Below are positions 1 through 25,879 of a stretch of DNA of 42,795 bases, piece after piece (positions within the stretch are counted from its first letter, which is position 1; the number at the start of each line of letters is the position of its first letter). The position numbers were made by a program, and so were the translations under genes. The notes under the pieces were generated by a model. That model did not search any database. It was given only the letters and a program-made list of their open reading frames with translations, and was not told the DNA's origin. The stretch is taken from IMG/VR virus record IMGVR_UViG_3300009161_000086, positions 1-42,795 of that record, one strand, 5' to 3'. The DNA is from a virus.

Positions 1-92
1 AGCCTGCTGTCACCAAGCCTGCTCCCAAGTCAACAAAGACTAAGGCACAGATTGAAGCTGAACTGTCCAATTTGGAAGACGCTCCGTTCTAA
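1..92 (+). CDS. C-terminal end of an SSB-like or other acidic-tail protein (5' truncated)
   Basis: The window opens inside a reading frame whose last residues read PAVTKPAPKSTKTKAQ, then IEAELSNLEDAPF, then TAA. A Pro/Ala/Lys linker followed by a short acidic tip ending in Pro-Phe is the layout of bacterial single-stranded DNA-binding protein tails, whose D-D-I-P-F tip docks partner proteins. Only about 29 codons are visible, so the OB fold cannot be checked. If it is an SSB, the phage carries it in addition to the T4-type gp32 at 20759. The tip could also be a chance ending of another early protein. Confidence 0.35.
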   Translation, partial: PAVTKPAPKSTKTKAQIEAELSNLEDAPF

Positions 93-162
93 ACCGGACC
101 CCCGCAGTGTGCGTAGGGGCAATATCAATAAGACCCCTCCGATAACTTAATTAGGAGTTGAT

Positions 163-378
163 ATGAAAAACGTGATTGAAGCCTTTGGTGTGTTCGTTGG
201 CCTGATTGCTGGCCTCGTGTTCCTATCCTTCCTACTGTCTTGGCCAGTAATGATGCTGTGGAATGGCTGCTTGGTAGGTGCTGTAGACGGTGTTAAAGAG
301 ATTGGCTGGCTACAGGCTTGGGGACTACAGTTCCTAGCCAACCTGCTGTTCAAAACCACTGTGACTAAGAAGGACTGA
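163..378 (+). CDS. Small two-pass membrane protein
   Basis: 71 residues. Two hydrophobic segments, about residues 8-35 and 48-63, are separated by a short polar loop, and the tail is basic (TTVTKKD). It probably sits in the host inner membrane. The start is supported by TTAGGAG about 6 nt upstream of the ATG. It lies between the partial first gene and the gene at 380, which starts 1 nt after its stop, so the two are probably translated from one mRNA. No family can be named. Confidence 0.7.
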   Translation: MKNVIEAFGVFVGLIAGLVFLSFLLSWPVMMLWNGCLVGAVDGVKEIGWLQAWGLQFLANLLFKTTVTKKD

Positions 379-379
379 T

Positions 380-598
380 ATGAGTAGACTGGATTTCATT
401 GGACGTCCCTGGACTGCCTTCGATGCCAAGAACAAGGACCATCGCAAGTGGTTTGCAGAGTTTCAGATGCAGGGCACATGGGGACGATGCCCTGTTAGGT
501 TCATAGTGAGTGATGATCATGGCGATTTGGTTACAATGATCCAACGCCGATTGATCCAGCACTACGTAGATAAAGAATTTGGTAAAATTAGTTCTTGA
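380..598 (+). CDS. Small early protein of unknown function
   Basis: 72 residues, soluble and mixed in charge, with several Trp residues (RPWTAF, RKWFAEF, GTWGR). AAGGA ends 6 nt before the ATG. The start lies 1 nt after the preceding stop codon, so it is the second gene of a two-gene unit. No signal peptide, membrane segment or recognisable motif is seen. Similar small proteins occur in early regions of environmental myoviruses, but I cannot assign a function. Confidence 0.65.
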   Translation: MSRLDFIGRPWTAFDAKNKDHRKWFAEFQMQGTWGRCPVRFIVSDDHGDLVTMIQRRLIQHYVDKEFGKISS

Positions 599-622
599 TC
601 TTTAGCAACTGTTCCTGTATAC

Positions 623-650
623 TTGTATTAACTGTTTAGAACAGTATAAC
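623..650 (+). promoter_or_regulatory. Early promoter overlapped by a palindromic operator
   Basis: TTGTAT (623-628), a 16-nt spacer and TATAAC (645-650) form a sigma70-like promoter for the HTH gene at 665. The perfect inverted repeat ACTGTT-TAG-AACAGT occupies 631-645, which is the spacer. That is where a dimeric repressor would block RNA polymerase. Autoregulation by the downstream HTH protein is inference. This promoter is clearly weaker in consensus than the eight promoters downstream. Confidence 0.5.
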
Positions 651-664
651 AAAGGAATAGAAAA

Positions 665-934
665 ATGAAGACTTTTACAACAAACTCAAAGACATACAAG
701 TTGTTTACCGCATTGAAGACTGGTGAAACCGTGACTGCAAGTCAAGCTGCAAAGCGTTTTGGTATCAAGAACCTCAGCGCAGAAGCAAGCCGCCTGCGTC
801 AAGCAGGTTATGCAGTTTATGCTAACCAACGAGTTGCTGGTAACCACGTTGAAGTTACTGAGTACCGTTTGGGCAATCCCAGCCGTGCTATTGTGGCTGC
901 AGGCTACAAGGCCATGGCACTGGGCTTGGCTTAA
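665..934 (+). CDS. Small helix-turn-helix DNA-binding protein
   Basis: 89 residues. Residues about 12-70 fit a winged-helix fold: a first helix (TYKLFTALKTGE), a helix-turn-helix (VTASQAAKRFGIKN then LSAEASRLRQAGY) and a beta wing (VYANQRVAG to VTEYRLG). AAAGGA precedes the ATG. Its own promoter contains a 15-bp palindrome in the spacer, which suggests autoregulation or regulation of the early region. The gene is followed at once by a structured RNA segment and an intrinsic terminator. It could also act on host promoters; the target is unknown. Confidence 0.6.
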   Translation: MKTFTTNSKTYKLFTALKTGETVTASQAAKRFGIKNLSAEASRLRQAGYAVYANQRVAGNHVEVTEYRLGNPSRAIVAAGYKAMALGLA

Positions 935-938
935 AAGA

Positions 939-1069
939 ATTTGGGGGTAGTGTCCCAAATAGACTCAACCTTGCTCCGTTGAGTCGATGTTAGTGCTAGG
1001 CAACTAGCCAGTGGGGGGTAGTGTCCCTGCTGTGGGAAGGCTTGCTCGGGAGAGTGGGCCTTTCTTTTT
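939..1069 (+). ncRNA. Structured RNA segment of five consecutive hairpins (candidate ncRNA or structured 3' UTR)
   Basis: Five hairpins follow one another. H1 has a 7-bp stem, 939-945/954-960, with loop GGTAGTGT. H2 has a perfect 8-bp stem, GACTCAAC at 962-969 with GTTGAGTC at 978-985, and loop CTTGCTCC. H3 is GCTAG-GCAA-CTAGC at 995-1008, with a GNRA tetraloop. H4 is an 8-bp stem with two wobbles, 1009-1016/1025-1032, again with loop GGTAGTGT. H5 is an intrinsic terminator. H1 and H4 have different stems but the same loop. TGCTCC and TAGTGT are complementary to GGAGCA and ACACTA in the early-gene leaders. It is probably transcribed from the promoter at 623. A regulatory role is inference. 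Confidence 0.55.
1037..1069 (+). terminator. Intrinsic terminator
   Basis: An 11-bp stem (AAGGCTTGCTC at 1037-1047 with GAGTGGGCCTT at 1052-1062, three G-T wobbles) has loop GGGA and is followed by TCTTTTT. It ends transcription from the HTH gene just before the promoter at 1081. Confidence 0.8.
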
Positions 1070-1080
1070 GACTGAAAGAC

Positions 1081-1109
1081 TTGACAAACTTCCCAAACGG
1101 TGCTATAAT
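1081..1109 (+). promoter_or_regulatory. Early promoter P1 (sigma70 consensus)
   Basis: TTGACA (1081-1086), 17-nt spacer, TATAAT (1104-1109), then ACACACATAG. It drives the gene at 1144. It is the first of eight near-identical promoters. Confidence 0.9.
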
Positions 1110-1143
1110 ACACACATAGACAGCAACACACTAGGAGCACAAA

Positions 1144-1353
1144 ATGAAAGTTTATTCACTGTTGGGGTTCAACGACTACGAAGGTTCAGACTTGGTAGGT
1201 GTGTTTGGATCCGTAGAGGATGTGATCAAATGTGTAGAGTCCAACGACAAGTGGTACTACGATGACATGGGATACGTGGAGTCCGATCTGGGCGTGAAGG
1301 TTGAAGACGTGCTGGGATCGGTAGAGTACGTGGAGTTCAAACGCTACTGCTAA
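1144..1353 (+). CDS. Small acidic early protein of unknown function
   Basis: 69 residues, rich in Val, Asp, Glu and aromatic residues. Two similar stretches, FGSVEDVIKCVES and LGSVEYVEFKRYC, suggest an alpha/beta mini-fold. The leader ACACACTAGGAGCAC gives a strong ribosome binding site 4 nt before the ATG. It has its own consensus promoter (P1), and the next promoter follows within 30 nt of its stop. No family is recognised. Confidence 0.7.
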   Translation: MKVYSLLGFNDYEGSDLVGVFGSVEDVIKCVESNDKWYYDDMGYVESDLGVKVEDVLGSVEYVEFKRYC

Positions 1354-1380
1354 AGACACTACAGCGCACAGGGTCTTTGG

Positions 1381-1409
1381 TTGACACTGTGCCCTGAACG
1401 TGTTATAAT
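1381..1409 (+). promoter_or_regulatory. Early promoter P2 (sigma70 consensus)
   Basis: TTGACA (1381-1386), 17-nt spacer, TATAAT (1404-1409), then ACACACATAC. It precedes the leader of the gene at 1438. The region around -35 contains the inverted pair GCACA/TGTGC. Confidence 0.9.
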
Positions 1410-1437
1410 ACACACATACACTAACAAGGAGCAGACG

Positions 1438-1650
1438 ATGTTTACACTAGCTGACGTAAAGACTGTTTATAGCGGCCGGCCCGGCTGCATGTGCGGATGC
1501 CGAGGCAAATACACTACGCCTGAGCAAAGCGCTCGCAGTGTCAAAATCCTGTTTAACAAGGTAATGAATAACCCCAAGCATAAAATAGAAGACGGTATCG
1601 CATTCGTAGAGACTGATACACGCAATCTCGTTGTTTACTTTGTGGAGTGA
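1438..1650 (+). CDS. Small Cys-rich early protein, putative metal site
   Basis: 70 residues. The N-terminal part carries the compact motif PGCMCGCRGKY, whose three Cys residues within five could bind a metal. A basic helix (SARSVKILFNKVMNNPKHK) and a short beta-rich end (DTRNLVVYFVE) follow. The start is ATG 1438 with AAGGAGC upstream; an in-frame TTG at 1381 is the -35 box of P2 and cannot be the start. Proteins with this GCxCGC-GKY signature recur in phage early regions, but the role is unknown. The gene at 1653 starts 2 nt after the stop. Confidence 0.7.
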   Translation: MFTLADVKTVYSGRPGCMCGCRGKYTTPEQSARSVKILFNKVMNNPKHKIEDGIAFVETDTRNLVVYFVE

Positions 1651-1652
1651 AT

Positions 1653-1889
1653 ATGATTACTGCTGATAAACTGGCCCTCCTGACCAATGTGCCTACTGCC
1701 ATGCTTAAACAAACTTTGGGCAAAACGGGAGATGAATATAATATCACAGGCAGCAAGTTCCTGGGACTGACCAATGGCGGAGAGTTCTGCTATCATGTGG
1801 TTCATCAGGTCAAGGGCGGCGCTGACAGTGCCAAAATCTTCCTGCGCTATGACCCTGCAGCGGACCAGGTTACTGGAACGATTGTTTGA
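1653..1889 (+). CDS. Small early protein of unknown function
   Basis: 78 residues beginning MITADKLALL. The first half is helical and the second half is beta-rich and polar (NGGEFCYHVVHQVKGG, AKIFLRYDPAADQ). GGAG of the preceding gene's end serves as ribosome binding site 5 nt before the ATG, so it is coupled to the gene at 1438. Promoter P3 overlaps its last codons. No motif is recognised. Confidence 0.65.
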   Translation: MITADKLALLTNVPTAMLKQTLGKTGDEYNITGSKFLGLTNGGEFCYHVVHQVKGGADSAKIFLRYDPAADQVTGTIV

Positions 1890-1914
1890 CAGTTTGGTAA
1901 AACCAAGTTATAAT
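1886..1914 (+). promoter_or_regulatory. Early promoter P3 (sigma70 consensus)
   Basis: TTGACA (1886-1891), 17-nt spacer, TATAAT (1909-1914), then ATACACATCG. The -35 box overlaps the stop codon of the preceding gene. Confidence 0.88.
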
Positions 1915-1940
1915 ATACACATCGCAACAAGGAGCATGAT

Positions 1941-2030
1941 ATGAAACAGGTGTTTAACGATTTGGTAGAGAGTGGCGCAATCGTTTGGGTTGCGATCTCT
2001 GTGAGTCTATTTGTAATCGCCTTGGTCTAA
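1941..2030 (+). CDS. 29-residue single-pass membrane microprotein
   Basis: The frame reads MKQVFNDLVESGA, then a hydrophobic helix IVWVAISVSLFVIALV, then stop. AAGGAGC lies about 8 nt upstream of the ATG and the consensus promoter P3 lies just before it, which supports a real microprotein. The topology would be N-in with the helix in the inner membrane. A similar 31-residue membrane microprotein at 2317 also begins MKQ. Function unknown; small phage membrane peptides can affect host envelope processes, but nothing here shows which. Confidence 0.55.
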   Translation: MKQVFNDLVESGAIVWVAISVSLFVIALV

Positions 2031-2037
2031 AGAGCCG

Positions 2038-2289
2038 ATGATGCAACAGACATACCTCTACTTCACACCGGAATTTATCAAGGAAGTCCTGCAGATGCAC
2101 GATGTTCACTGCATCTTTGAACTGGATGCACCCGATCACATCTTTGACAGGCTCATGGCCGCTGAGTTCTACACAACACAAGATGTCCGTGGACGCGAGG
2201 TCGAGTTCAAACAATGCTACACACTCAGCGAGATCTACTGCCCACATGAAGGCATTGACCGTCGTAGCCAATACGGAATGGTTGACTGA
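2038..2289 (+). CDS. Small early protein of unknown function
   Basis: 83 residues (MMQQTYLYFTPEF...), mixed alpha/beta, acidic. It contains FELDAPDHIFDRLMAAEFY and a C-terminal segment with two Cys residues. It starts 7 nt after the membrane microprotein's stop with only a weak ribosome site (AGAG), so it is probably translationally coupled. The second ATG at 2041 is equally possible. Promoter P4 overlaps its 3' end. No family is recognised. Confidence 0.6.
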   Translation: MMQQTYLYFTPEFIKEVLQMHDVHCIFELDAPDHIFDRLMAAEFYTTQDVRGREVEFKQCYTLSEIYCPHEGIDRRSQYGMVD

Positions 2290-2310
2290 ACCCCAGAACC
2301 CTGCTATAAT
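2282..2310 (+). promoter_or_regulatory. Early promoter P4, probably giving a leaderless mRNA
   Basis: TTGACT (2282-2287), 17-nt spacer, TATAAT (2305-2310), then ACACAC and at once the ATG at 2317. Transcription normally begins about 7 nt after the -10 box, that is at or next to the A of this ATG. No ribosome binding site exists for the 2317 gene. Confidence 0.82.
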
Positions 2311-2316
2311 ACACAC

Positions 2317-2412
2317 ATGAAACAAGCACTTACAGAACTGTTCCAAGCCACCGTGATAGCCCTGCTGATCGGTGGACCTTTCATCATCTACTTGTATCAA
2401 ATGAAACCCTAA
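2317..2412 (+). CDS. 31-residue single-pass membrane microprotein
   Basis: The frame reads MKQALTELFQ, then the hydrophobic run ATVIALLIGGPFIIYLY, then QMKP and stop. It begins 6 nt after the -10 box of P4, with no space for a Shine-Dalgarno sequence, so it is probably translated from a leaderless mRNA. Its stop (TAA) overlaps the AAGGAGC ribosome site of the gene at 2423. It resembles the 1941 microprotein in size, MKQ start and single helix; the two may be diverged copies. Function unknown. Confidence 0.5.
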   Translation: MKQALTELFQATVIALLIGGPFIIYLYQMKP

Positions 2413-2422
2413 GGAGCCCAGC

Positions 2423-2668
2423 ATGACAGTTGAATTCACCCTGGAAAAACTTACCCCGCGTCAAATGGTCCTGGCAGACATCATCTGGGCCTTTGAAGAC
2501 TTCGCAGATGTTCAGAAGTTCATCCGGACTCTGCCCACGCCGTCCTTGCGCGATGAAGCCTACAGCCTCGTGGAACTGATGAAGATGGCTGCAATTGAAC
2601 AATGCTACGATGGCATCGCAGAACCTTTTGATGCTAAGAAACTGCTTGACAAGATCTCAAAACGATAG
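2423..2668 (+). CDS. Small helical early protein of unknown function
   Basis: 81 residues, mostly helical: TLEKLTPRQMVLADIIW, then DVQKFIRTLPTPSLRDEA, then SLVELMKMAAIEQCYDG. The pattern resembles small conserved proteins of environmental myoviruses, but no function is known to me. A strong site, AAGGAGC, overlaps the stop of the preceding microprotein, so the two are coupled under P4. P5 lies inside its last codons. Confidence 0.65.
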   Translation: MTVEFTLEKLTPRQMVLADIIWAFEDFADVQKFIRTLPTPSLRDEAYSLVELMKMAAIEQCYDGIAEPFDAKKLLDKISKR

Positions 2669-2674
2669 TATAAT
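2646..2674 (+). promoter_or_regulatory. Early promoter P5 (sigma70 consensus)
   Basis: TTGACA (2646-2651), 17-nt spacer, TATAAT (2669-2674), then ACACACTTAA. The -35 box is coding sequence of the preceding gene; the -10 box starts 1 nt after its stop. Confidence 0.88.
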
Positions 2675-2700
2675 ACACACTTAAACAACAAAGGAACACA

Positions 2701-2853
2701 ATGAAACAAGTTCAAAGCAAGTCCAGCACTGGCGGCACCATCACAGAGTTCTTCGTAAACGATGTCCGCGTTCGGGTCACACACTCAGCGGGCCGAGCAT
2801 ACACTGGCAAGATCGCCCAGCAAGAAGCCAAACAAAAACCCGCCAAACGGTAA
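2701..2853 (+). CDS. 50-residue basic early protein
   Basis: MKQVQSKSSTGGTITEF, then FVNDVRVRVTHSAGRAYTG, then a Lys/Gln-rich tail ending KQKPAKR. It is strongly basic, with a small beta-rich core and a flexible charged tail, as in nucleic-acid-binding small proteins; that role is a guess. AAAGGA precedes the ATG and P5 lies 27 nt upstream. The stop is 9 nt before the -35 box of P6. Confidence 0.6.
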   Translation: MKQVQSKSSTGGTITEFFVNDVRVRVTHSAGRAYTGKIAQQEAKQKPAKR

Positions 2854-2862
2854 GGACTTTGG

Positions 2863-2891
2863 TTGACACCTAACCCAAACGGTGTTATAAT
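2863..2891 (+). promoter_or_regulatory. Early promoter P6 (sigma70 consensus)
   Basis: TTGACA (2863-2868), 17-nt spacer, TATAAT (2886-2891). The spacer end CCCAAACGGTG is shared with P1, and CCAAACGGTAA occurs just upstream at 2843-2853. It drives the AAA+ ATPase gene. Confidence 0.9.
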
Positions 2892-2922
2892 ACATGCTTA
2901 CACACACTAAGGAGCACACACT

Positions 2923-3768
2923 ATGCCAAGAGGATTTCGCAATGATGGACAGCCCCGCCAAAAACGTAACGGCAGCGGCCCAGTAACAATTACTAAACAT
3001 AACCCCTCAATGCCAGAGGTTGTGGTGCAAAGTCGTTGGACAATTAATCAACGCTTTGGCTTTGTCACTGATATGGTGCGTATGGTGGCACAGGGCGATC
3101 AAGCCTCTGTGATCATTTGCGGCCCCGGTGGACTGGGCAAGAGCCATACTGTTACACAGAGCCTGCGTGAACAAGGCCTCAAAGACATTAGCCTCTTGAA
3201 CGAGTTTGACATTGGCGAACACGTGGACACTGAAGCTTGCTTCCGAGTGATCAAAGGCTACAGTACTGCAAAGGGCCTGTACAGAGCACTGTACGAGAAC
3301 AGAGCGGGCGTGATTGTGTTTGACGACTGCGACTCAGTGCTGAAGGACCCAGTGAGCTTGAGCTTGCTCAAAGCCGCATTGGACAGTTACTCCAAACGAG
3401 TGATCAGCTGGAGAGCAGACTTGAAGGACGAAGACTTGCCAACGACATTTGAGTTCAACGGGAGGGTGGTGTTTATCTCCAACATGGCCTCTACGCAAAT
3501 GGATCAAGCAATTATCACACGAAGCTTGTCAGTGGACTTGACTATGACACGGCAACAAAAGGTGGAACGTATGCGTCACTTGTTGACCCAACGAGACTTC
3601 CTGCCCGAGCATAGCCAACAACACAAACAAGACGCTATGCAATTGATCGACAGCTTGCAGGATCAAGTTAAAGAGATGAGCCTCCGTACACTGATCCAAT
3701 GCACTAAGATCCGCAAGAGCAATGCGGGCAACTGGCGCGAACTTGCAGAGTACGCAATAGCTGGCTGA
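2923..3768 (+). CDS. AAA+ family P-loop ATPase
   Basis: 281 residues. Walker A GPGGLGKS is at residues 67-74, Walker B VIVFDDCD at about 130-137, and a sensor-like ISNMAS follows near residue 188. The arginines in RSLSVDLTM may form the trans site. The N-terminal 30 residues are basic and disordered. The architecture fits a ring-forming ATPase that remodels a protein or nucleic-acid partner; similar ATPases occur in T4-like phages, but the substrate is not known. It is the only large gene of the early block and has its own promoter P6 and the leader CACACTAAGGAGCAC. No nuclease or helicase domain is fused. Confidence 0.8.
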   Translation: MPRGFRNDGQPRQKRNGSGPVTITKHNPSMPEVVVQSRWTINQRFGFVTDMVRMVAQGDQASVIICGPGGLGKSHTVTQSLREQGLKDISLLNEFDIGEHVDTEACFRVIKGYSTAKGLYRALYENRAGVIVFDDCDSVLKDPVSLSLLKAALDSYSKRVISWRADLKDEDLPTTFEFNGRVVFISNMASTQMDQAIITRSLSVDLTMTRQQKVERMRHLLTQRDFLPEHSQQHKQDAMQLIDSLQDQVKEMSLRTLIQCTKIRKSNAGNWRELAEYAIAG

Positions 3769-3780
3769 AGAAGCCATACA

Positions 3781-3812
3781 CTGTACAGGGTCATTGATTG
3801 ACTCCTGTACAG
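3781..3812 (+). repeat. Pair of CTGTACAG palindromes flanking the -35 box of P7
   Basis: The 8-bp palindrome CTGTACAG occurs at 3781-3788 and 3805-3812, 24 bp apart. One copy lies upstream of the -35 box and the other lies in the spacer. This is a plausible operator pair; the binding protein is unknown. Confidence 0.4.
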
Positions 3813-3826
3813 AGTGATGCTATAAT
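3798..3826 (+). promoter_or_regulatory. Early promoter P7 (sigma70 consensus)
   Basis: TTGACT (3798-3803), 17-nt spacer, TATAAT (3821-3826), then CAACACTTAC. It precedes the gene at 3853. Confidence 0.88.
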
Positions 3827-3852
3827 CAACACTTACACACACTGGAGCACAT

Positions 3853-4053
3853 ATGCTTAATCCCATCCCCAAGTCGGACTTCTTCGTAACTGAAAGCATC
3901 CGGAATGTGTTTGAACGCATTGAATCCTTTAGCAACAAGAAGGAAAAGGCTCAAGCATATCAAATTGCGATGACAATGATGAACGCTTGCCACAAGGCAG
4001 TAGCAGAAGAAATACTGTACAATGAAGTCAAAAAAGACTTGACAGAAGCGTAA
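3853..4053 (+). CDS. Small helical early protein of unknown function
   Basis: 66 residues, nearly all predicted helix: ESIRNVFERIESFSNKK, then EKAQAYQIAMTMMNACHKA, then VAEEILYNEVKKDL. The leader CACACTGGAGCAC gives a ribosome site 4-5 nt before the ATG. Its last codons contain the -35 box of P8. A helical hairpin that binds a host protein is possible, but nothing in the sequence identifies a partner. Confidence 0.65.
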   Translation: MLNPIPKSDFFVTESIRNVFERIESFSNKKEKAQAYQIAMTMMNACHKAVAEEILYNEVKKDLTEA

Positions 4054-4067
4054 AACGAAGTTATAAT
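4039..4067 (+). promoter_or_regulatory. Early promoter P8 (sigma70 consensus)
   Basis: TTGACA (4039-4044), 17-nt spacer, TATAAT (4062-4067), then ACTTACTTAC. It is the last promoter of the early array and drives the gene at 4098. Confidence 0.88.
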
Positions 4068-4097
4068 ACTTACTTACACAACACACTGGAGCACTAA

Positions 4098-4430
4098 ATG
4101 ATTGCACTCGACACACTGGCTAGCGTACTGGACACTGCACAGGCCCAGGCACGTAAGGCCACTGAAGACTTCCTTGCTAAACACGGCGACAGAGACGCTT
4201 GTGGCTTTGCTTGGGTTAACGTATACGATGTACGTAGTAACAGCAAGGTTGGCAAGGTGCTGGCACTGGCAGGCTTTAAGAAGGCATACGGCGGCGGACT
4301 CCAACTGTGGAACCCCAGCGGCAACTGGACACAATGTATTACTGCTAAGGAAGTAGGCGCACAGGCCTACGCTGATGTGCTACGTGCCGCTGGCATTGAG
4401 AAGGCCTACGCTGGCTCGCGTATGGACTAA
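4098..4430 (+). CDS. Conserved phage early protein of unknown function
   Basis: 110 residues. A helical start (LDTLASVLDTAQAQARKA) leads into a distinctive core: GDRDACGFAWVNVYDVRSN, SKVGKVLALAGFKKAYGGG, LQLWNPSGN, and the end AYAGSRMD. I recognise this core from hypothetical proteins of many unrelated phages and plasmids, but it has no assigned function. The leader ACACTGGAGCAC sets the start. The gene is followed directly by the second structured RNA segment and a strong terminator, which closes the early region. Confidence 0.75.
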   Translation: MIALDTLASVLDTAQAQARKATEDFLAKHGDRDACGFAWVNVYDVRSNSKVGKVLALAGFKKAYGGGLQLWNPSGNWTQCITAKEVGAQAYADVLRAAGIEKAYAGSRMD

Positions 4431-4434
4431 CTGT

Positions 4435-4551
4435 TTGCTCCGGGCAGGGGCGAGGGGGTAGTGTCCCTTAGAAGAATCCCTGCCCCTCTTATACTTGGTT
4501 GGTAGTTGTTTATAGTCCCACTCTTAGTCTTAAGGGTTGGGACTTTTTTTT
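4435..4551 (+). ncRNA. Second structured RNA segment sharing motifs with 939-1069
   Basis: TTGCTCC (4435-4441) is immediately followed by a perfect 8-bp stem, GGGCAGGG (4442-4449) with CCCTGCCC (4478-4485). Inside lies a smaller hairpin, 4452-4456/4465-4469, whose loop is again GGTAGTGT (4457-4464). The segment ends in the terminator at 4514-4551. The order TGCTCC then TAGTGT is that of the reverse complement of the early leader (ACACTA then GGAGCA). It is probably the 3' part of the P8 transcript. It may be a processed small RNA; that is inference. Confidence 0.5.
4514..4551 (+). terminator. Strong intrinsic terminator closing the early region
   Basis: AGTCCCA (4514-4520) pairs with TGGGACT (4538-4544), followed by a run of eight T. 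Confidence 0.88.
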
Positions 4552-24286: not shown

Positions 24287-24294
24287 TATTTAGT
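24287..24294 (-). promoter_or_regulatory. T4-type late promoter
   Basis: ACTAAATA on the minus strand, then CTGAT and the ATG at 24281. It overlaps the last two codons and the stop of the terminase gene. Confidence 0.6.
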
Positions 24295-25879
24295 ACGTGC
24301 TAATGTAAATGGGCATGGGAAGATCATATTCTCCCATGCCTTCTTGATCACGCATCTTTTCATAAATTGCAGGATCCCATTCTTGTAAACTCATAAGCAT
24401 ACGTATATTTAATAATGCGCTAGAAACTAAGTCATCGTGCTGACCATCTTTGGCTTTGAATGTGGTGCCTTGAGCAGTAAATGTTTTTAACTCACTAATT
24501 AGTGCTTTACTACATATTTTTATTTTTTTAGTTTCAATCAATTGTTTGAGCTTGGCGCAGCAGGAAATTTTACTATTATGAGTGGTATTAAACCCTTTAC
24601 GGAATCTACGAACATGCCCACGTTTTACTGGTTCACTCAAGAATAATCCTGGAAAAGTTTCTTCACCCAATGCATCAATTGCAACCAATGCACTTTCACC
24701 CAAGGTATTATTTTCCACACTGTAATAAATGCTTGGAGTTACGCCAGCTTTGATAAACCGTTCTTCAACAAATTTTAACATATCTCGTAGAATACGAACT
24801 TGTCCTTGGATTGGAGTTAAATTATGATGCCATTCACCAACTTGATCCAAACTGGGTATCTCAAATACTTGAATTGCTCCAAAGTCGCTGCCTGTTCCCA
24901 TGCTGGGATCTAAACTAAACAAGTAAGTACTTCTAGTATTGATACGCTTGTACCAACGAGCTTGACCCATTTTAATTTTGGGCTCTTCTCCTTGCAAACT
25001 GGCAAGACACGCACTGTTGATTAATGTTTCGTCAAAGATTAAAAACTTACATTCGTGCTCGCGATTAAATCGGTCATCGCCCAATTGTGCTCGCATTTCT
25101 GATGCCCATTTCACATCACGATCCGGATGTTGACTCCAAATAGCCATATATGGGCGATACCCATTCCTACCCAGTTCAGTAGTGTTTCCAAAGTCATCAA
25201 TTCGATTATTTGCCTCATTCCAAATAGTAGCAAATTGATCTTCGTCACTATTTGGTGTTGATGTAATGATGGCCTTACCACCAGTTGCCAGTGTGGGAGC
25301 AATTGAAGTCCAAAATTCGCTAGCAATATTAGGTGCAACATATGCAAACTCGTCGCAGTATAACAATGATATAGACATACCACGACCAGTGGTTTCTGTA
25401 GTTGTTTGTGCTACGATACGTGACCCATTTTCAAATTCAATACTTTGTTTATTATAACTGGTAACACCTGCACGGATAAAATCAGGACAAGTTTCATATG
25501 CATAACGAAGCCGTTGCATAATTTCCTGTGCACCTGTGTATTTGTGGGCACATATTAATATGGTACTATCTGGCATGAACATCGCATACCATAGTAAGTA
25601 TCCAACTGCTGTAGTAGTTTTACCCATTTGTCGTCCCAGCATATTGACGCTGTAACGATAATTGTGATAGCTATATAACAAATCATCTTGATAATCAAAA
25701 GCATCGTATTTGATTTGGCCTTTGGTAGCGTGTTGAATAAAGAAAAAATGTTTTAAGAAATATTGCGGGCCGTCAATAGGATCCATGCACCCAGCCATAT
25801 GGGCAAGATCTTCATCTGTCCAACGTTGTGTTGTGTTGGCTTTTTTTATGAGCACCCCATCGAGATTCTTTGAACCCAT
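24290..25879 (-). CDS. 17: Terminase large subunit, gp17 type
   Basis: 529 residues. ATPase: Walker A GRQMGKTT (82-89), Walker B SLLYCDEFAY, coupling motif ITSTPNS. Nuclease: first Asp in FSLDPSMGTGSDFGAI, later acidic site DGQHDDLVSSAL. It packages DNA into the prohead and cuts the concatemer. An ATTAAATA late box (25899-25906) and AAGGAAT ribosome site precede the ATG, so unlike several late genes it has a normal leader. A terminator directly upstream isolates it from the preceding gene. Confidence 0.95.
   Translation of the reverse strand: MGSKNLDGVLIKKANTTQRWTDEDLAHMAGCMDPIDGPQYFLKHFFFIQHATKGQIKYDAFDYQDDLLYSYHNYRYSVNMLGRQMGKTTTAVGYLLWYAMFMPDSTILICAHKYTGAQEIMQRLRYAYETCPDFIRAGVTSYNKQSIEFENGSRIVAQTTTETTGRGMSISLLYCDEFAYVAPNIASEFWTSIAPTLATGGKAIITSTPNSDEDQFATIWNEANNRIDDFGNTTELGRNGYRPYMAIWSQHPDRDVKWASEMRAQLGDDRFNREHECKFLIFDETLINSACLASLQGEEPKIKMGQARWYKRINTRSTYLFSLDPSMGTGSDFGAIQVFEIPSLDQVGEWHHNLTPIQGQVRILRDMLKFVEERFIKAGVTPSIYYSVENNTLGESALVAIDALGEETFPGLFLSEPVKRGHVRRFRKGFNTTHNSKISCCAKLKQLIETKKIKICSKALISELKTFTAQGTTFKAKDGQHDDLVSSALLNIRMLMSLQEWDPAIYEKMRDQEGMGEYDLPMPIYISTY

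Follow-up and report, generated by a model that had tools for sequence, protein, structure and literature searches.

A putative modular antisense RNA family in two early 3' UTRs of uncultured T4-like phages, with loops complementary to a leader shared by many early genes

In an uncultured lake-water phage and in dozens of related viral contigs, structured elements at the same two positions of the early region carry unpaired words that are antisense to a leader recurring before many other early genes. We consider it likely that these elements form a modular antisense RNA family, housed in two early 3' UTRs, which represses the early leaders by pairing in trans. The structure of the elements, their conservation, their place, their complementarity to the leaders, their co-occurrence with them, and the joint change of loop and leader are direct observations; the pairing between loop and leader is well supported by sequence comparison, which strongly suggests that one RNA would switch off a set of phage genes by base-pairing.

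As we envisage it, hairpins with variable stems would display unpaired words that stay constant, namely (G)GUAGUGU, UUAGUG, and (U)GCUCC; these are antisense to ACACUA followed by GGAGC, the standard leader of many other early genes. The RNA would be freed from the 3' UTRs, probably through termination and processing, and would make loop-to-linear contacts in trans with the leaders, covering the Shine-Dalgarno sequence and repressing the early set at the level of translation. The mRNA of the winged-helix gene, from which the first element would derive, carries another leader and is predicted to be spared. Expression of the RNA, its action in trans, its repressive effect, and its early-to-late timing are what we infer, and it is our guess that the winged-helix protein, at the level of transcription, and the RNA, at the level of translation, jointly drive the switch from early to later genes. 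If true, a common uncultured freshwater phage group would govern its early genes via a single antisense RNA, in effect a global early-gene repressor made of RNA, matched to a leader standardised by the phage itself, and large phage groups would harbour structured RNA families missing from every database.

Two structured 3' UTRs and the early leaders of the window

The window, that is, the whole stretch of 42,795 bases analysed here, is a viral contig whose phage reads from its genes as T4-like and contractile-tailed, on the basis of DnaB-like helicase, terminase, tail sheath, and tail-sheath stabiliser genes; the nearest terminase to its own (24290-25879), at 54% identity, belongs to large PA5oct-like Pseudomonas phages. 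The + strand holds the early region (1-4551), a label inferred from position and promoters, and the genes beyond switch to the - strand. Most early genes in 1-4551 have a near-perfect sigma-70 promoter of their own and a short leader. Among 50,697 phage records searched as DNA, no match to the early region was found, and the closest relatives by ATPase gene (L001-L003) did not yield the element. A 45-bp cassette of promoter end and leader (window 1104-1148) is 91% identical to positions 6417-6461 of L001, a distant phage without the element, and leaders may travel between phages as such cassettes. Elsewhere in the early region, a perfect promoter (TTGACT-17-TATAAT; 2282-2320) is followed by an ATG only 6 bases beyond, so the mRNA of this gene may be leaderless and would then evade an antisense RNA.

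All features of the early region described hereafter lie on the + strand. Element 1 occupies the 3' UTR of a winged-helix (HTH_39) gene (665-934; Pfam PF14090, 6e-8) and its segment folds (z = -4.3) into hairpin 1 (939-960), whose loop GGTAGTGT (946-953) is antisense to ACACTA; hairpin 2 (962-985), with an 8-bp stem and a loop CTTGCTCC (970-977) that contains TTGCTCC (971-977) and is antisense to GGAGCA; a further hairpin at 995-1008; hairpin 3 (1009-1032), again with loop GGTAGTGT (1017-1024); and an intrinsic terminator (1034-1069) whose hairpin tip CTCGGGAGAG (1045-1054) recurs in relatives. A linker word between two hairpins, TTAGTG (990-995), is antisense to CACTAA and provides a third antisense word that the first-pass annotation of this DNA had lacked. 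Element 2 lies in the 3' UTR of a gene of PHROG 22149, a family with no assigned function (4098-4430). There, TTGCTCC (4435-4441), antisense to GGAGCA(A), is unpaired in the comparative reading, and its GCTCC is invariant in 14 members of the corresponding class (class A, below); the element proper (4442-4485) has an outer stem (4442-4449/4478-4485) and an inner hairpin with loop GGTAGTGT (4457-4464), and an intrinsic terminator (4514-4551) is recognisable by fold and sequence. On its own, segment 2 folds weakly (z = -1.5), so its structure depends on comparison.

The targets would be the leaders ACACTAGGAGCA of gene 1144 (1128-1139), ACACTAACAAGGAGCA of gene 1438 (1418-1433), ACACTAAGGAGCA of gene 2923 (2904-2916), and ACACTGGAGCA of genes 3853 (3839-3849, with a G.U at the final base of the first word) and 4098 (4083-4093), as well as the GGAGCA of gene 1941 (1931-1936), where ACACTA is absent. 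Gene 2701 is early, yet its leader is without the words. Each putative loop-leader pairing is short (6-8 bp). In the window, the duplex energies of the two loop words set the starts of early genes apart from those of late genes (p 0.0007), and by the same energies the winged-helix leader is not a target.

The first-pass annotation had already noted the shared loop in three hairpins with different stems, TTGCTCC both in the 8-bp hairpin and unpaired before the stem at 4442, GGAGCA as the ribosome site of six leaders, and, upstream of that site, ACACTA before 1144, 1438, and 2923 and ACACTGGAGCA before 3853 and 4098, and every one of these words and coordinates checks out in the window. Its interpretation survives in part. 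The antisense-loop core stands and is reinforced below by stem covariation, by words that occur together, and by loops and leaders that changed jointly. Kissing loops are not upheld: the leader ACACUA is predicted to be mostly unpaired (fraction 0.84; GGAGC, about half open, 0.49) and the leaders mostly linear, so the contact would be loop-to-linear. Nor is an independent small RNA: no promoter stands directly ahead of either segment and terminators lie behind them in the window, for which reason they resemble, and probably are, 3' UTRs.

Taken alone, the window is weak evidence for an antisense RNA, and the strong evidence comes from comparison. The window has exactly three copies of GGTAGTGT, a count equalled in 7 of 100 shuffles of the window, and ten of TTGCTCC; each GGTAGTGT copy is part of GGGGGTAGTGTCCC and occupies the loop of a hairpin whose outer stem differs from those of the others. 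For the comparison, leaders were located by pattern in the window and in 16 early regions of element-bearing contigs, many of them fragments, which gave 251 promoter-linked leaders (245 distinct). ACACTA is present in 134 of the 245 (55%), against an average of 43 and a highest count of 61 in 500 runs of a first-order Markov model built on these leaders; GGAGC is present in 72%. The base after ACACT is A in 132 cases, G in 16, T in 6, and C in none, which is what pairing with the loop U allows, and after GGAG the next base is C in 177 of 210 cases among early leaders versus 13 of 45 among other genes. The antisense of TTAGTG is found in 113 of the 245, and TTAGTG itself recurs in L018, L019, L107, and L178. 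Summed over the 245 leaders, the antisense match of segment 1 was equalled in 6 of 300 shuffles (about p = 0.02) and that of segment 2 in 25 of 300 (about p = 0.08); along segment 1, the strong matches in a sliding comparison coincide with its unpaired words (948, 972, 990, and 1019).

An element family that changes together with its leaders

Scanning viral contigs for GGGGGTAGTGTCCC returned at least about 65-70 places with full context among the matches listed. Two classes were distinguished: class B elements, immediately 3' of genes homologous to the winged-helix gene (665-934), and class A elements, of the segment 2 type, 3' of homologues of gene 4098-4430 in several contigs; both occur together in L055, L091, L124, and L087. 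Since these DNA scans demanded the loop sequence, loop invariance has to be judged from the protein-based fetches. In the GGUAGUGU hairpin the stem varies around a fixed loop, with a covariation of 0.483 against 0.150 when shuffled and at most 0.120 when slid, and the second, GNRA-capped hairpin of class B behaves likewise (0.589 against 0.281 shuffled and at most 0.130 slid). These values were counted on a gapless alignment; RNAalifold on raw alignments missed the main hairpin because of gap placement. Both sides of the class A outer stem change among relatives with pairing maintained, and the G-U pairs favour an RNA read from the gene strand. Hairpin order differs strongly between architectures, and segment 1 has two copies of the GGUAGUGU loop where L178 has three. 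In cellular genomes, none of 116 fetched GCTCC..GGGTAGTGTCCC matches had a stem of at least 5 bp or several leaders, and these are thus chance matches.

The element and the leader words are found together. When 30 contigs were compared, 16 picked for their element and 14 without it, at least 4 and up to 16 ACACTA..GGAGC sites lay on the element's strand in 15 of the 16, the exception being G004, one of some GUAGUGU phages in which ACACTA leaders are few (1 of 10); the 14 element-free contigs had 0-3 such sites in total, with no strand bias. Near winged-helix genes without the element, leaders have ACACTA in 2 of 104 cases (2%) and GGAGC in 18 of 104 (17%). Relatives that keep the leaders and lose the loops had been named at the outset as the pattern that would speak against the proposal, and the opposite came out, loop-free contigs being without the leader words.

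Loop and leader also change jointly in a sister lineage, whose loci were fetched by the winged-helix protein alone, with no loop required. This second class carries a CCG-AUUCGCUCC-CGG hairpin and no GUAGUGU. Across its 35 distinct loci, ACACTA is found in 24 of 224 leaders and GGAGCG in 141 of the 171 leaders with GGAGC, 82 of these being GGAGCGAA, the exact antisense of the UUCGCUCC loop; across the 46 loci of the GUAGUGU class, the corresponding figures are 257 of 484 and 53 of 331. The per-locus median of ACACTA is 4% with the UUCGCUCC loop and 52% with the GGUAGUGU loop (p 1e-10), and that of G after GGAGC is 100% and 9%, respectively (p 1.6e-12), p-values that overstate independence, as the loop class changes few times on the winged-helix protein tree: five times on the best tree and once on well-supported branches of what is, being built from a short protein, a poorly resolved phylogeny. 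The strength of the result, on the sequence comparison, is that the changed letters match the base-pairing prediction. Two loci have both loops, L031 with mixed leaders (ACACTA in 8 of 13, GGAGCG in 3 of 8) and L422 with ACACTA in 7 of 10 and no GGAGCG. The both-loop label was dropped for 6 of 8 loci, where TAGTGT belonged to the next promoter, and these are UUCGCUCC loci. A rule that matches the base preceding GCUCC to the one following GGAGC was likewise abandoned, as it fails inside the GUAGUGU class, where the base flanking GCUCC shows no covariation with the leader.

From a phage competition perspective, loop and leader words may be imagined as a "leader code" spoken in two or more dialects (GUAGUGU/ACACUA and UUCGCUCC/GGAGCGAA). 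The RNA would then be a global translational switch of the phage's own early genes and, acting in trans, would also silence those of a superinfecting phage that shares its dialect, while sparing one that uses the other, and the codes would diverge under competition; this we regard as a rather doubtful extension. The natural loop-leader swap between the two lineages would offer a ready specificity test and a simple orthogonal translation-control system.

Other readings of the conserved words

A further early promoter and leader lie shortly downstream of class B elements, an arrangement that would suit a cis safeguard, the element pairing with the next gene's leader on a read-through transcript and silencing it unless its own promoter is used. 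We hold this to be quite unlikely: a strong terminator follows element 1, the next gene is leaderless or has a leader without the words in L146, L132, L035, and L058, and many distant leaders bear the words. Moreover, no same-strand gene lies within 2 kb downstream of element 2, so that a neighbour in cis cannot be its target, which argues for action in trans. The same pairing could also have the opposite effect, the RNA shielding early mRNA 5' ends or activating these mRNAs otherwise. ACACTA lies mostly 6-12 nt past the -10 box, thus close to the extreme 5' end of the mRNA, and in Bacillus the sRNA RoxS is known to protect the 5' ends of mRNAs (PMC5419742); the second word covers the core of the Shine-Dalgarno sequence, however, which as a rule blocks initiation, and leaves activation a slim prospect.

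That ACACTA stands just past the -10 box, and that a predicted DNA-binding protein is encoded beside element 1, could likewise be accounted for if TAGTGT/ACACTA were a DNA operator, bound by the winged-helix protein both at its own locus and at the promoters of early genes. Such an operator appears very improbable to us, given that the loops of covarying hairpins hold the word, in antisense orientation throughout, that the other conserved word is an antisense copy of the Shine-Dalgarno sequence, that the winged-helix gene is far from segment 2, and that relatives of the protein co-occur with the UUCGCUCC loop where ACACTA leaders are absent. It is scarcely credible, finally, that UUGCUCC and GGGGUAG are conserved for internal structure only, through mutual pairing within the element: RNAalifold does offer this pairing, with 7 pairs in class A (three of them G.U) and 5 in class B, but it competes with the covarying GGG/CCC hairpin, has no covariation of its own (its pairs being constant in nearly all rows), fails where GCUCC has a separate hairpin (segment 1, L018, and L178), and leaves the loop UGU and, wholly, the leader words unexplained.

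Known RNA regulators and minor features of the element loci

Repression of the early leaders in trans would place the element among known kinds of regulators, and two features by which trans-acting sRNAs are recognised were found here, namely above-chance complementarity to initiation regions kept across relatives and an RNA word that changed together with its target (in few independent changes). A phage antisense RNA directed against a leader standardised among the phage's own early genes is a new form of a known kind of RNA, and a literature search found no report of this one. In phage T4, the global translational down-regulation of early genes is carried out by RegA; the proposed role and the T4-like phage are alike, but RegA is a protein. 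Sar, an antisense RNA of phage P22 and reportedly the subject of work by Ranade and Poteete in 1993 (cited in PMC12197685), pairs with a ribosome-binding site as is proposed here, but it has a single target gene and another genetic place. The c4 antisense RNA of phages P1/P7 uses short words around the ribosome-binding site, probably loop-borne, and blocks translation (PMC12197685). Antisense words around ribosome-binding sites of phage mRNAs are present here too, with ACACTA and GGAGC in many early leaders; c4, however, has one target gene (ant) and an immunity role, whereas here many small early genes share the target words, no sequence relation to c4 was found, and at the gathering score no Rfam family matched the window or ten related loci.

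Among bacterial RNAs, the alpha-r14 or "cuckoo" sRNAs, e.g., NfeR1 of Sinorhizobium meliloti, have three hairpins with highly variable stems, repeat the anti-Shine-Dalgarno word CCUCCUCCC unpaired, and silence many mRNAs at the ribosome site (PMC10746234). Several variable-stem hairpins showing the same unpaired word are also what the phage element has, although the ultraconserved CCUCCUCCC in three hairpins is not found in it and its words are GGUAGUGU and (U)GCUCC; the bacterial RNAs target metabolic and transport mRNAs, whereas the phage RNA would use two different words (GUAGUGU and GCUCC) against a phage-specific leader, from a place 3' of early genes. IsrR of Staphylococcus and the C-rich-loop sRNAs of Firmicutes direct single-stranded loops against the Shine-Dalgarno sequence of many mRNAs (PMC9410917), but they are host regulators with generic C-rich motifs and without the phage leader word.

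Several smaller features accompany the elements. In class A, a purine-rich UAG(U/A)AGCAG 3' of the GGUAGUGU hairpin is kept (L034, L042, L075, L081, and L095; window 4469-4476), and the class A alignment offers no obvious pairing partner for it. The terminator tip CTCGGGAGAG (stem CUC/GAG, GGGA tetraloop) is kept in L019, L061, L066, L079, and L096, and at its place class B also has GUGA-capped hairpins. As for the winged-helix gene, its own leader is without ACACTA and GGAGC in all of about 36 element-bearing phages, and the words are missing too in element-free relatives (one of which has ACACTA), so the exemption is ancestral. In the window (629-648) and at many loci, the AAGGAA of this leader is preceded by a small conserved hairpin of the form ACTG-loop-CAGT or GCTG-loop-CAGC; the hairpin is present both with and without the element and is a candidate autoregulatory site.
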